Position numbers and translations under genes: made by a program | In this document: in pieces, positions 8,512 to 60,475 of the stretch | Position numbering within the stretch: position 1 is the first letter of the stretch | Layout: every line of letters starts with the position of its first letter | NCBI RefSeq assembly: GCF_003426735.1 | Contig: NZ_QVON01000003.1 | Location: 310,001 to 374,000, forward strand | From: Arenibacter sp. P308M17 | Lineage (GTDB): Bacteria > Bacteroidota > Bacteroidia > Flavobacteriales > Flavobacteriaceae | Direction of reading: 5' to 3' | Length of the DNA: 64,000 nt | Notes under the pieces: model-generated | Seen by the model: the letters and a program-made list of their open reading frames with translations, nothing else | Told to the model about the DNA's origin: nothing | Databases searched by the model: none

Positions 8512-8686
8512 TCCTCCCCCTAGCCCCCTCCCAAGGAGGGGGAACATGATTCTTAACATAATTATCCCATACGCTCACACTTCATGAAGAAAGTAATCTT
8601 TTAAAAGTGTAATAAAATTTCTAATATGTGTGGAACGTCGATTACCAGTTGCTCCCCCTCCTTGGGAGGGGGTTGGGGGGAGGTCA
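8512..8686. mobile_element. Non-autonomous inverted-arm element, family C (MITE-like)
   Basis: About 175 bp bounded by inverted arms: left GTCCTCCCCCTAGCCCCC followed by TCCCAAGGAGGGGGA, right TCCCCCTCCTTGGGAGGGGG followed by TTGGGGGGAGGTC. Each arm is itself an imperfect palindrome. The interior is A/T-rich and non-coding. The arms are almost identical, in the same order, to those bounding the DUF559-coding insertion in leuS (59144-59602), so I read this as a nuclease-less member of the same family. Confidence 0.75.
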
Positions 8687-9679: not shown

Positions 9680-10359
9680 ATGTAAAGGCAGTAATTGTGG
9701 TTAACAGTTTACAATAATAAGAAAGTAATTTCCTTTGGCATAATGGCATGATTATCTTTTTGTTATTATTGGGATTATAACCCAGCAATCCGTTTTTGTT
9801 TGAAAAAATAGATCGTCAAAGTTGGTGATTATCCTATCCTAAAGTCCTCCCCCTAGCCTCACCGTTGACGCGAGCGTCACGCTCGTGTTTATAAACTTTC
9901 CGCATAAAACAACTGGCCTTTGGTTTCAATCCCTTCCGTCTTCTCCTCCTAAGGTCGGAGAATCCACCTTCCCTTATAATTCGACTCCGCACAGCATAGG
10001 TCCAAAGGAAGTAGCTTTTACTTAAATCATTACAATTTACTTATTGAATTATGAACCCCTTTAGTAGCTCCCCCTCCTTGGGAGGGGGTTGGGGGGAGGC
10101 CCCAGCTGGCGCGAGCCTGCCTTAGTCGGCAGACAGGCGTCACGCCCGTGCCTACAAAAGCCCTTTAGCTCCCCATCCTTAGGGATAACTGTCCCGCTTT
10201 TGGGCAGGTAGGTTGGGAGGGGGGGGGGGTAGGGCTGTCCAGAAAACTATTTTTTATCTTGAATCTTATGCTTTGAAAATTAGGGTATTAAATAAATTTA
10301 GAGTGCAAGTATTTATTATATTAGAACTATCATTAACAACCACCTAAACAAAATAAAAT
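9680..10359. repeat. Composite repeat-rich spacer upstream of aqpZ
   Basis: This 680-base region holds a second family C arm pair (left arm from 9842, right arm about 10067-10101), with a family A hairpin (CGCGAGCGTCACGCTCGTG, about 9868-9886) and a TCCCTTCCGTCTTCTCCTCC unit nested between. Next comes a longer family A copy (about 10104-10160) containing GCCTGCCTTAGTCGGCAGAC, then a G-run of about eleven bases near 10219. The last 100 bases are A/T-rich and probably carry the aqpZ promoter. No gene is apparent. Confidence 0.75.
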
Positions 10360-56848: not shown

Positions 56849-59800
56849 TTAACCCACTATATTGACGATCTTTCCGGGAACCACAATCACCTTCTTAGGG
56901 GTACGGCCCTGTAACTGTTCCTGTGTTTTGTCATGGGCCATGACGGCGGCCTCTATTTCCTCTTTGGATAGATCTGCCGGCAATTCCACTTTAAAGCGCA
57001 CCTTCCCATTGAAGGAAATAGGGTACTCCTTACTGCTCTCTACCAAATACTTCCCTTCAAACTTGGGGAAGGGAGCGTTTGCAATGGAGGTCGTATGTCC
57101 CAATTTACTCCAAAGTTCCTCGGCTATATGGGGCGCATAGGGAGAGACCAATACGGCCAAGGGTTCCAAAATGGCCCTGCTGGTACATTTTTGGGCAGAC
57201 AATTCATTTACGGCAATCATAAAGGTAGATACAGAGGTATTAAAGGAGAAATTCTCTATATCTTCCTCTACTTTTTTAATAGTCCTGTGTAGGGTTTTCA
57301 GACTTTCTTTCAATGGTTCGGCAACACCCCCCTCGCCCCCCTCAAGGGGGGAATTATCCACTTTAAACTGGCCCTCCCGCCCGGAATGGTACAAACGCCA
57401 TAATTTCTTTAAGAAACCATGTGTTCCGGTAATCCCAGCCGTATTCCAAGGTTTGGATTGCTCCAAAGGCCCTAGGAACATCTCATACAATCGCAGACTA
57501 TCCGCCCCGTATTCCTCGCAGATAGCATCCGGACTTACCACATTGTATTTGGACTTGGACATTTTTTCTACTTCGCGAGAGACTTTGAAGGCCCCTCCTA
57601 AATCCTCCCCAAAAGGGAGGACTTCCCCCTTCTCTCCTATAAAAATGGCATCTTTGTATTCTTCTCCAAATTCACTATCTCTTTTTAATTCTTCAATATC
57701 CAATTCATCTGAAGCATTAACGTATTGAACTTTTACATGGATTGGTGAAAATTTAAGCCCGTGTACAATTGCTCCAACATTTTGAGTACGAATATCATTC
57801 TGGACATATTCAAACAACCTCATAAAGATTTTCAAAGTATCTTTTTTACCTCCATCAAGTAAATTATAAAAAACTGTGTCCTCAATTACACTTGCCAATC
57901 CTTTTGTGAACCCATTGCCGTTAGCAAAAATATTTTTATCCTGAGCTGATATTTCAGAAGATAAAATAAATTTATATAAATCATCTATTTCCTTAAAACA
58001 ATCATAAGAAACATACATGGGTTTGGTTAGAGAAGGTTCTTTAATTTTCTTGTTTAATGACCAACTTGCTTCAAAATCGACTCTATAAACAAAAGCACTG
58101 GTCCCCGTAATCATTCCCTGGTTGATGAGTTTTTTGGCAAACTCGGGTTTGGGCACCACTCCCTTATCGAACAGGAACTTCTGCCAAAAACGGGAATACA
58201 GCAAATGTCCGGTGGCATGCTCGCTACCCCCAATGTAGAGATCCACATCCTGCCAATAGTCCATCGCCTCCTTAGAAAAAATTTCCTTTTCATTATGGGG
58301 ATCCATATAACGGTTGAAGTAATACGAACTCCCCGCCCAACCGGGCATGGTGTTCAGTTCCAAGGGAAATACGGTTACATCATCAATTAACTGATTACTG
58401 ACTACTGCCGACTTCCCAACGTCCCAGGCCCAGATCGTGGCATTGCCCAAGGGCGGTTCCCCGGTTTCCGTAGGCAGGTATTTCTCCACCTCGGGCAGTA
58501 TAATGGGCAAATGTTCGGCACTAATCATTTGGGGCATCCCGTCCACATAATATACTGGAAAGGGTTCTCCCCAATAGCGTTGTCGACTAAATACGGCATC
58601 CCGCAACCTGTAATTGATCTTGCCTTTTCCCTGTCCCAATTGTTCCAATTCGGAAATGACACGCTTAACGGCTTCCTTATAGGGGAGTCCGTTCAAGAAG
58701 TCGGAATTGGCGATAACCGTCTTTTCCTTATCGGCAAAGGCCAATTCGGAAATATCCACTCCCTCAAATATATTGGGAATGGGAATATTAAAATGCTTTG
58801 CAAAGTCGTAATCGCGTTGATCCCCACAGGGAACGGACATTACCGCCCCGGTACCATATCCGGCCAACACATAATCCCCTATCCAAATTGGAATGGGCTC
58901 CTTGCTGAACGGGTGTTCTGCGTAAGCTCCCGTAAAGGCTCCCGTTATGGTCTTTACATCGGCCATACGATCGCGCTCACTGCGTTTGGCCGTAGCCGCA
59001 ATATAAGCCTCTACTTCCTCCTTTTGGCCGGAAGTGGTTATTTTGGACACCAATTCGTGCTCCGGGGCCAGGGTCATAAAACTTACCCCAAAAATGGTAT
59101 CGGGCCGGGTGGTGAATACCGAAATTTCCTGGGCTTGCGAATTGACCTCCCCCCTGCCCCCTCCCAAGGAGGGGGAGTTTAGTGCCGTCTCAATTTTATA
59201 AACTACCTCATCAATATCATTAAGAACTTCATCATTGGTAAATCTGATAACGGTATACCCCTTTTTCTGCTCCAACAACAATTGCCTTTCCGCATCCTCG
59301 TTCAACTGATATTGGTGAATTTCTCCATCCACCTCCACGATCAATTCTTTTTCCAAGCAAACAAAATCTACTATATACCTAGAAATTGGATGTTGTATTC
59401 TAAATTTTGAATCCAGATTTCTATTTCTTAGGGCCTCCCATAGCTTAGCTTCTGCCTTGGTGGGGTTCTTGCGCATATCTTTGGCCCTTTCCAATAGAAC
59501 TCCATAAATATCCGAATCGGCAGTATGAAATTTCGGTGAAGACGAATCCCTATTAAGATCAGAAGTCGTTCCCCCTCCTTGGGGAGGGGCTAGGGGGAGG
59601 ACCCTAAACGTCACTTCCGCCCCTTCGGACCTGCCTATCCAATTGGTTTGGGAATCCTTTAAGGGTTGGGGCCAATCTACCATGGCCAGATCGTCCAACA
59701 ACCGCTGGGCATAGGCAGAGATCCGCATGCTCCACTGCGTCATTTTTTTGCGGATAACAGGATGCCCCCCTCGTTCCGAAACCCCGTTGACAATCTCGTC

Positions 59801-60475
59801 GTTGGCCAAAACGGTTCCAAGGGCCGGACACCAATTTACTTCGGTCTCCGCCAAATATGTTAACCTATATTGCAACAACACTTCCTGTTGTTGCTTTGCC
59901 GTAAAGGCCTGCCAATCGGCCGCTGAAAATAGCGCAACATCTTCATCACAAACCGCATTTACACTTTGGTTGCCCTCTTTTTCAAAAATAGCGATCAACC
60001 TGGAAATATCTTCCGCCCTATCGGCATCCTTATTGTACCAGGAATTAAAAAGTTGGATAAAGATCCACTGTGTCCATTTATAATAGTTGGGATCGGAGGT
60101 ACGCACTTCCCTGCTCCAATCGAAAGAAAATCCAATTTTATCCAACTGTTCCCTATACCTGTTGATATTGGTTTCCGTGGTAATGGCTGGATGCTGCCCA
60201 GTCTGAATGGCATATTGCTCCGCAGGCAGGCCAAAGGAATCGTACCCCATAGGATGCAATACATTAAACCCCTTATGCCTTTTGTAGCGCGCATAAATAT
60301 CACTGGCAATATAGCCCAAAGGATGCCCTACGTGCAAACCGGCACCGGAAGGATAGGGAAACATATCCAGTACATAAAACTTTTCTTTTTGGGAATCGTT
60401 ATCCGCCTTAAAAGTTTGGTTTTCCGCCCAAAATTGCTGCCACTTTTCTTCAATCTTCCTGAAATCGTAAGTCAT
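56849..60475 (-). CDS. leuS: Leucyl-tRNA synthetase with multiple in-frame insertions, including a DUF559 nuclease domain
   Basis: The class I synthetase core is intact: HVGH at 48-51 (HIGH), the WIGRSEG entry to the CP1 editing domain, FTTRPDTIFG, the AGYGTGAVMSVPCGD editing segment, EVEKMSKSKYN with KMSKS at 971-975, and the C-terminal anticodon-binding domain. At 1208 residues it is far longer than usual LeuRS (roughly 850-950). The excess maps to residues 292-444 (DUF559 element), about 795-911 (A/T-rich segment near the leucine-specific domain), about 949-962 and about 1039-1051 (short G/C-rich palindromes read in frame). No stop or frameshift is seen, so it should still make an active synthetase. 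It charges tRNA-Leu and edits mischarged products. Confidence 0.92.
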   Translation of the reverse strand: MTYDFRKIEEKWQQFWAENQTFKADNDSQKEKFYVLDMFPYPSGAGLHVGHPLGYIASDIYARYKRHKGFNVLHPMGYDSFGLPAEQYAIQTGQHPAITTETNINRYREQLDKIGFSFDWSREVRTSDPNYYKWTQWIFIQLFNSWYNKDADRAEDISRLIAIFEKEGNQSVNAVCDEDVALFSAADWQAFTAKQQQEVLLQYRLTYLAETEVNWCPALGTVLANDEIVNGVSERGGHPVIRKKMTQWSMRISAYAQRLLDDLAMVDWPQPLKDSQTNWIGRSEGAEVTFRVLPLAPPQGGGTTSDLNRDSSSPKFHTADSDIYGVLLERAKDMRKNPTKAEAKLWEALRNRNLDSKFRIQHPISRYIVDFVCLEKELIVEVDGEIHQYQLNEDAERQLLLEQKKGYTVIRFTNDEVLNDIDEVVYKIETALNSPSLGGGRGEVNSQAQEISVFTTRPDTIFGVSFMTLAPEHELVSKITTSGQKEEVEAYIAATAKRSERDRMADVKTITGAFTGAYAEHPFSKEPIPIWIGDYVLAGYGTGAVMSVPCGDQRDYDFAKHFNIPIPNIFEGVDISELAFADKEKTVIANSDFLNGLPYKEAVKRVISELEQLGQGKGKINYRLRDAVFSRQRYWGEPFPVYYVDGMPQMISAEHLPIILPEVEKYLPTETGEPPLGNATIWAWDVGKSAVVSNQLIDDVTVFPLELNTMPGWAGSSYYFNRYMDPHNEKEIFSKEAMDYWQDVDLYIGGSEHATGHLLYSRFWQKFLFDKGVVPKPEFAKKLINQGMITGTSAFVYRVDFEASWSLNKKIKEPSLTKPMYVSYDCFKEIDDLYKFILSSEISAQDKNIFANGNGFTKGLASVIEDTVFYNLLDGGKKDTLKIFMRLFEYVQNDIRTQNVGAIVHGLKFSPIHVKVQYVNASDELDIEELKRDSEFGEEYKDAIFIGEKGEVLPFGEDLGGAFKVSREVEKMSKSKYNVVSPDAICEEYGADSLRLYEMFLGPLEQSKPWNTAGITGTHGFLKKLWRLYHSGREGQFKVDNSPLEGGEGGVAEPLKESLKTLHRTIKKVEEDIENFSFNTSVSTFMIAVNELSAQKCTSRAILEPLAVLVSPYAPHIAEELWSKLGHTTSIANAPFPKFEGKYLVESSKEYPISFNGKVRFKVELPADLSKEEIEAAVMAHDKTQEQLQGRTPKKVIVVPGKIVNIVG
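57324..57359. repeat. Family C-like palindrome inside leuS (residues about 1039-1051)
   Basis: ACACCCCCCTCGCCCCCCTC then AAGGGGGGAATTATCC. Read in frame it gives NSPLEGGEGGV, a Gly/Pro-rich loop. Its AAGGGGGGAATTATCC end resembles the palindrome at 17297-17331 (AGGGGAGGAATTATCC). Confidence 0.75.
57590..57631. repeat. Family C variant palindrome inside leuS (residues about 949-962)
   Basis: GGCCCCTCCTAAATCCTCCC then CAAAAGGGAGGACTTCCCCC. In frame it encodes GEVLPFGEDLGGAF, directly before the KMSKS region. The close relative at 17297-17331 is non-coding. Confidence 0.75.
57640..58090 (-). other. A/T-rich segment of leuS, probable foreign or recombined tract
   Basis: Residues about 795-945, around the leucine-specific domain, use A/T-rich codons (ATT, TTT, AAT, TTA) unlike the rest of leuS. 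About 115 residues (from DFEASWSLNKK to IVHGLKF) occupy a place where Bacteroidota LeuRS usually has a short linker. The tract ends at the in-frame palindrome at 57590-57631. Confidence 0.6.
59144..59602 (-). mobile_element. Family C element carrying a complete DUF559 endonuclease domain, inserted in frame in leuS
   Basis: 459 bases (153 codons) with inverted arms of about 34 bases at 59144-59177 and 59569-59602, matching those of the intergenic element at 8512-8686. On the coding strand the arms read VLPLAPPQGGG and SPSLGGGRGEV. Between them is a full DUF559 domain: KFHTADSDIYG, the helix RKNPTKAEAKLWEALRNR, YIVDFVCL (Asp), LIVEVDGEIH (ExD plus His) and YTVIRFTNDEVL, the PD-(D/E)XK, Vsr-like layout. 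The insertion lies in the loop before the LeuRS FTTRPD motif. No intein splice motifs are present, so it stays part of LeuRS unless cleaved by other means. Confidence 0.85.

Follow-up and report, generated by a model that had tools for sequence, protein, structure and literature searches.

A DUF559 nuclease between palindromic arms lies in frame within the leucyl-tRNA synthetase gene of Arenibacter sp. P308M17

The leuS insert, its nuclease and its arms

The window analysed here, a stretch of 64,000 nt from the genome of Arenibacter sp. P308M17, carries on its minus strand leuS (56849..60475), which encodes a leucyl-tRNA synthetase (LeuRS) of 1208 residues and is open throughout. The leuS profile matches on either side of an insert, the two parts summing to 895.7 bits, and in a profile search of this 99.98% complete genome a single locus passes the leuS_bact cut-off. 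The insert itself (59144..59602, minus strand, residues 292-444, coding-strand ends GTCCTCCCCC...GGGGGGAGGTC) is 459 bp long, a multiple of three, and the leuS frame is the sole stop-free frame among its six, in agreement with a sequence-only reading that had described an in-frame insertion of this extent. The boundary was placed by comparison with empty leuS alleles, and the host sequence joins perfectly without the insert, as that reading had claimed: close empty alleles hold six residues (e.g. KGREEV) where the window LeuRS holds the insert and the six residues NSQAQE. The loop at the insertion codon reaches up to about 12 residues in some other members of the genus, and in the numbering of Thermus LeuRS the insertion point falls between positions 236 and 240. 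Elsewhere in the same gene, a stretch of about 100 residues (57749-58090, leuS residues ~796-909; VYRVDFEASWSLNKK...VHGLKF) lies between conserved LeuRS blocks; LeuRS matches to relatives skip it, ending near residue 803 and restarting near 908, and no arms were seen within it.

Within the insert, LeuRS residues 329-432 (59180..59491, minus strand) constitute a complete DUF559 (PF04480) nuclease domain, with a Pfam match over profile positions 5-108 of 109 (E 3e-33, 114.4 bits against a cut-off of 20.6) and the conserved E/D/E-x-D/H set present. Scans with Pfam and NCBIfam identified no extra DNA-binding domain in the fusion and no Hint/intein family at E <= 0.001 across the whole LeuRS protein, and no Rfam family reached its gathering score within the 64-kb window, hence no group I or group II intron RNA was found there. 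The nearest solved relatives by sequence are 3hrl (E 1e-29) and 3r3p, entitled 'Mobile intron protein' (E 2.3e-7), the latter of which we take to be the EDxHD homing endonuclease I-Bth0305I. A model of the segment, built from 63 aligned sequences, has a mean pLDDT of 75 and a pTM of 0.51; most of the DUF559 part (112-221) has a pLDDT of 70-89, the arm peptides (84-103 and 223-235) fall below 50, and the editing domain of the host fits 4k47 at 1.9 A across 183 superposed residues. All 50 structure matches listed for the model are LeuRS, with none for the DUF559 part alone, and the viral fold matches of the DUF559 part are DUF559, Vsr-like and homing endonuclease proteins (E 1e-6 to 1e-3, whole-model TM ~0.2). 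The nuclease is predicted from this model to be a separate folded bead on two flexible linkers formed by the arm peptides, and given such linkers the host enzyme may tolerate the insert.

The N-side arm (59570..59602, minus strand) consists of the tail GTCCTCCCCCTAG followed by the hairpin CCCCTCCCCAAGGAGGGGG, translated as VLPLAPPQGGG, and the C-side arm (59144..59176, minus strand) is its inverted copy, in which the hairpin CCCCCTCCTTGGGAGGGGG precedes the tail CAGGGGGGAGGTC, translated within NSPSLGGGRGEV. The two arms, 31 nt each, are 87% complementary, and the inverted arms already noticed at the insert ends stand beyond chance against shuffled and reversed controls. With at most three mismatches allowed, the arm-core pattern gives 12 matches in the window (six places on both strands; shuffled mean 0.66, largest 5) and, genome-wide, 19 forward and 18 reverse ones, where the reversed control gives 0 and 1; a stricter tail-plus-hairpin pattern gives 7 + 8 genome matches with none in the control. 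Sixteen distinct arms from 16 loci of the genome, both leuS arms included, have the common form G[AT]CCTCCCCC-NNN-CCCCCTCC-CAA-GGAGGGGGA, the exceptions being one GG for G[AT], one C-to-T change in a tail and the leuS N-side hairpin, which is a one-base variant. Both leuS arms are members of this dispersed hairpin family.

Some arms of the family stand alone and others form outward inverted pairs that enclose no nuclease, with a spacing of 70-150 bp. One such pair lies in the window, with a plus-strand arm at 8513..8541, its minus-strand partner at 8655..8683 and no nuclease between them (8513-8683); two more pairs lie in the related genome G016, and a single arm at 10071..10099 (minus strand) falls outside the listed ORFs of at least 100 aa. 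In the genome of the window, nuclease-less arms, as singles or as inverted pairs, are more numerous than the composite element. Five same-direction arms with a spacing of about 335 bp occur at one locus of another relative (G007, contig C2, L198 825-2200).

Within leuS itself there are two further arm-like palindromes, both in frame and on the minus strand: a diverged one just before KMSKS (57590..57622; VLPFGEDLGGA, beginning GTCCTCCC) and one in the C-terminal part of the gene (57323..57355; NSPLEGGEGGV). At the place that matches window 57590-57622, a homologous protein, P0002, has another arm-DUF559-arm insert, its second, and arm-like peptides before KMSKS are also present in P0047, P0052, P0054 and P0058; the rows of these five proteins were read directly, as was that of P0011, which is apparently the LeuRS of the window.

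Occupied and empty leuS alleles in related genomes

LeuRS was matched in 60 of 60 related genomes and the insertion site was read in the 30 with listed loci, the window genome included. Three of these sites are occupied, one holds a decayed DUF559 (G019, called by eye), two hold a lone arm or remnant (G006 and G004), one holds another repeat-like insert (G022) and 23 hold none of these. Within the genus (18 genomes), three sites are occupied, two keep a single arm or what remains of one and 13 show neither, so the empty sites anticipated at this codon are found; 'empty' here means no DUF559 and no recognisable arm, in loops of six to about 12 residues, some of which start with VLP and could be worn arms. 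In G006 both outer tails are joined through one central hairpin at the leuS insertion codon, a single-hairpin state that is the product expected if two arms recombine, and this lone arm amounts to a palindromic repeat inserted in frame in a gene. In G022 (L050) the CP1 site of leuS holds a different repeat-like peptide, MTSEMLKLVQHDETERHSELNSESNPYK, in the same LeuRS loop, as though several kinds of repeat favoured this loop as a hot spot.

In a phylogeny built from the LeuRS flanks, the three occupied alleles are not a single clade and at least two changes are needed to account for them; the occupied allele of G013 is sister to the empty allele of G014 (SH-aLRT 96). The inserts of G013 and G007 differ by a dS of only 0.078 (6 of 81 synonymous sites), whereas their leuS flanks differ by a dS of 0.807 (193 of 390; Fisher p 6.5e-14 for insert versus flanks), and the G013 flanks are nearer to those of the empty G014 allele (dS 0.283) than to those of G007. 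Given the low insert dS, the high flank dS and the closeness of the G013 flanks to an empty allele, the alignments indicate that the insert moved horizontally into the same leuS codon. The detailed evidence concerns one species pair and one site, and the distribution there is that of a homing element, with horizontal transfer into one site and with both empty and occupied alleles. It could instead be that the insert was precisely lost from G014, but such a loss leaves the ten-fold lower dS of the insert between G013 and G007 unexplained. A generally slow insert does not account for that low value: in the comparisons with G000 the insert has a dS of 0.667 (flanks 0.686) against G007 and of 0.570 (flanks 0.760, p 0.23) against G013, in neither case significantly lower than that of the flanks; taken alone, these two pairs are compatible with vertical descent. 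The mobility proposed by the sequence-only reading has therefore fared well, since the reverse of a fixed insert in all relatives with no arms elsewhere was found: 15 of the 18 genus members are without the insert, the arms recur and the insert appears to have moved between lineages.

The insert has a dN/dS of 0.08-0.21, which indicates that the nuclease sequence is maintained by purifying selection. Near-identical LeuRS hosts may carry different inserts, as in P0028 and P0057 (host identity 0.95, insert identity 0.66), and across 74 LeuRS proteins the correlation between host and insert identity is 0.43 over 2701 non-independent pairs. Viral contigs provided no vehicle, the best match among the 80 loci kept of 104 having 52% identity, and neither plasmids (38 records) nor phages (3 records) held a close-lineage carrier, each match being below 60% identity.

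DUF559 in other host proteins and between inverted flanks

A search with residues 300-450 against proteins of ~660-2100 aa returned 1076 matches at E <= 1e-3 among 1586 candidates. Among the best 120 of these 1076, the LeuRS editing domain PF13603 is present in 108 and absent in 12. Both LeuRS anchors were found by motif in 81 of the best 120, and in 80 of the 81 the DUF559 domain lies between the anchors in an uninterrupted protein; arm-like peptides, counted with loose patterns and without a control, border the domain on both sides in 67 of these 80, with 74 showing one N-terminally and 72 C-terminally. When smaller hosts were sought in a second search, 56 proteins among 323 candidates were added. 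In total, more than 20 protein families have members with an in-frame DUF559, either internal or terminal, often with arm-like borders, in a host set that includes many metagenome sequences, some of them partial. Family scans place the domain inside MetRS (P0036), IleRS, ValRS, MetH, PurL, RecJ and a second site of LeuRS, and further identify MiaB, TsaB, RibD, WecB, CinA, MurC, RecG and sugar aminotransferases as hosts; at or near an end it occurs in IspF, HemD, RNase P protein, SpoU methylase, guanylate kinase, RNase H, RecQ and a SpoIID-like protein. More than one DUF559 match above 40 bits is seen in 25 proteins, among them P0001, with two tandem copies at the CP1 site, and P0002, with one copy at CP1 and one before KMSKS. 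The element that the earlier reading described in leuS is thus real but its extent was underestimated, as it belongs to a broad class that also appears as lone arms, as a tandem copy, as fusions at the N-terminus and in stand-alone form.

At least 565 relatives were found in named genomes, of which the best 80 were kept; the titles among these 80 name Myxococcales, Anaerolineales, Aggregatilineales, Nomurabacteria, Ignavibacteriales and Chitinispirillum beside Bacteroidota, the six non-Bacteroidota titles being those of metagenome bins and possibly wrong. In the window's own genome, DUF559 is fused in frame N-terminal to the ribonuclease P protein component (PF00825) at one locus (L004 961-1845, contig C25). 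Six genomes of the family carry N-terminal DUF559 fusions to an apparent uroporphyrinogen-III synthase (L140, L145, L147, L153, L154 and L164), an identity confirmed by family scan for L140 only.

DUF559 frames with arm-like borders, a search for which the earlier reading had proposed, do occur in many host genes. The best inverted match between the two flanks exceeds the 99th percentile of 1080 offset controls in 38 of 79 loci (from the best 80 of at least 565 relatives, L110 being left out). With longer flanks, more loci and 1676 offset controls, the 99th percentile is exceeded in 36 of 96 fused and 17 of 42 stand-alone loci and the 95th in 48 of 96 and 25 of 42, which leaves 48 fused and 17 stand-alone loci with no excess over the 95th percentile; for the fused half without significant inversion, our guess is that old inserts have decayed. 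The strongest inverted flanks, compared by eye among the 79 loci, vary in sequence by clade and have in common a C-rich tail and a CCCCTC(T)CC..GG(A)GAGGGG-like hairpin. One stand-alone DUF559 of the window's own genome (L001 ~1370-2090, contig C22) lies between long direct repeats that hold a different palindrome (direct score 79).

The hairpins and the nuclease are associated at the level of whole genomes. Among 149 genomes of the family, DUF559 (E <= 1e-8) is present in 55 and a CCCCTCC hairpin in 32, the reversed control being present in one. The hairpin occurs in 24 of the 55 genomes with DUF559, against 8 of the 94 without it (p 9e-7), and at least two hairpins occur in 14 of 55 against 0 of 94 (p 2.7e-7), these being raw counts uncorrected for genome size, composition or kinship; 31 of the 55 have DUF559 and no such hairpin. 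Within the genus, the number of DUF559 domains correlates with the number of full arms (Spearman 0.59, p 0.010, 18 genomes); the four genomes without DUF559 have zero full arms, and four genomes with DUF559 likewise have zero. A CCCCTCYCC hairpin was found in 15 of the 30 genomes behind the best 80 relatives, in up to 99 copies, with the control found in one.

A tree of the DUF559 domains, with 273 rows, 116 columns and many weak forks, requires 56 changes of host-site labels set by motifs, where the least possible is 13 and the shuffled mean is 130, which indicates that DUF559 lineages tend to keep to a site yet switch repeatedly; its starred branches alone force at least eight changes for the LeuRS CP1 label. 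Of 295 fused domains, 289 have an intact catalytic set; this is an upper estimate, since a profile search is biased towards intact copies and there are near-copies among the domains.

A homing-like element and its alternatives

Taken together, it is suggested that the leuS insert is probably a non-splicing, in-frame, homing-like mobile element with REP-like palindromic ends, whose nuclease is translated within the host protein. By this account the DUF559 nuclease would cut or nick an empty allele, or a locus holding a lone arm, and repair would then copy the occupied allele in, as with intron- and intein-encoded homing endonucleases but without splicing. Through the arms they have in common, the nuclease cassette would be able to recombine into lone arms elsewhere, at new loci, and recombination of one arm with the other would leave a lone arm such as that in G006. 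We infer that the element is selfish and that its mobility enzyme is its own; the nuclease is expected to stay within the host protein and may act either as part of LeuRS or from an internal start.

Alternatively, DUF559 may be cargo: REP-like palindromes may be moved otherwise, by a transposase in trans or by replication slippage, and two of them may by chance have come to enclose a nuclease gene. The excess of nuclease-less arms over the composite element in the genome, the two arm pairs without a nuclease in G016, the long direct repeats around the stand-alone L001 and the 31 of 55 DUF559 genomes that lack the CCCCTCC hairpin are all consistent with this. Nevertheless, we consider it unlikely for three reasons: many loci hold DUF559 between inverted repeats of differing sequence, the number of palindromes tracks the presence of DUF559, and nearly all fused domains (289/295) retain their catalytic residues.

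The insert may also be an accessory domain that LeuRS has inherited vertically and lost many times, and that serves the cell in defence, repair or control. The clustering of DUF559 copies of one host site on the tree, the low dN/dS of the insert, the retained catalytic set and the fit of the G000 comparisons with vertical descent would all be expected of such a domain. This is quite improbable, however, given the conflict between insert and flank dS in G013 and G007, the incongruence of host and insert among LeuRS proteins, the lone arm at the leuS codon in G006 and the presence of this module in host proteins from more than 20 unrelated families. Finally, introns and inteins typically insert precisely and in frame into conserved housekeeping genes, as is seen in leuS, but a spliced element, or one skipped in translation, is highly improbable and was rejected because the insert is open in the host frame only, no intein domain was found in LeuRS by Pfam and NCBIfam scans, no intron RNA matched in the window, and 80 of the best 120 proteins show the DUF559 motif between both LeuRS anchors in one uninterrupted protein.

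The homing-like reading can be extended, tentatively and at somewhat under an even chance, to a major bacterial class of mobile element that has gone unnamed: a Vsr/DUF559 nuclease framed by REP-like hairpins, with a frame open through both arms, that enters housekeeping genes as a tolerated domain. The nuclease would drive both homing and the spread of the hairpins, and the GA/CT-rich palindromes of several phyla would be non-autonomous derivatives. Homing nucleases in conserved genes usually need a self-splicing intron or an intein to spare the host gene, and here the nuclease seems to persist in essential enzymes because it forms a harmless, flexibly linked bead, inside or at an end of proteins from more than 20 families. 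Such an element would explain why aminoacyl-tRNA synthetases and other enzymes receive odd DUF559 annotations, and its insert positions would be natural insertion sites for protein engineering.

The arms resemble REP and REPIN sequences, which are dispersed GC-rich hairpins with a 5' tail, found as singles and as inverted pairs, and with which RAYT transposases are associated. The leuS arm family likewise comprises dispersed hairpins, as singles and inverted pairs, in a genome with a nuclease gene. The enzyme differs, being of Vsr/DUF559 type where RAYT is a Y1 HUH transposase like that of IS200/IS605, and, unlike in REP/RAYT systems, the nuclease lies between two hairpins and here inside a gene. 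Beyond the RAYT transposases, DUF559 is a candidate for the enzyme that mobilises dispersed palindromic repeats. Rickettsia palindromic elements are palindromic repeats inserted in frame in genes, and to our knowledge they encode no nuclease. The in-frame palindromes of leuS, namely the lone arm of G006 and the arm-like palindromes of the window, resemble them by type, and the leuS element differs in encoding a nuclease.

In the open-access literature that was searched (PMC), no paper on DUF559 insertions or on palindrome-flanked DUF559 was found. The nearest precedent found there is the ShiLan domain of actinobacteriophage DNA methylases, described as a stop-free insertion with a nuclease, a homing-like distribution and no detectable splicing (PMC11855218). 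The leuS element matches this description as a stop-free, nuclease-bearing insertion in a protein gene with a homing-like distribution and no splicing detected. According to the same account, the HNH nuclease of ShiLan is out of the host frame and its phage gene is not essential (PMC11855218), whereas the DUF559 nuclease of leuS is in the host frame and elements of the leuS type sit in chromosomal housekeeping genes; the leuS element also has arms from a repeat family, and the string 'palindrom' is absent from the main text of the ShiLan paper (PMC11855218). For the EDxHD homing endonucleases, such as I-Bth0305I, a multi-domain enzyme with an extended DNA-binding region is described (PMC3943268). 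The leuS element shares with them a related nuclease domain (3r3p, as above) and site-specific transfer, but unlike these enzymes, of which 3r3p is titled a mobile intron protein, it was found with neither an intron nor an extra DNA-binding domain. Inteins with homing endonucleases are likewise described as in-frame nuclease insertions in conserved genes (PMC3943268), as is the leuS element; unlike in inteins, no splicing domain was found in the leuS element and its nuclease is expected to remain part of the host synthetase.
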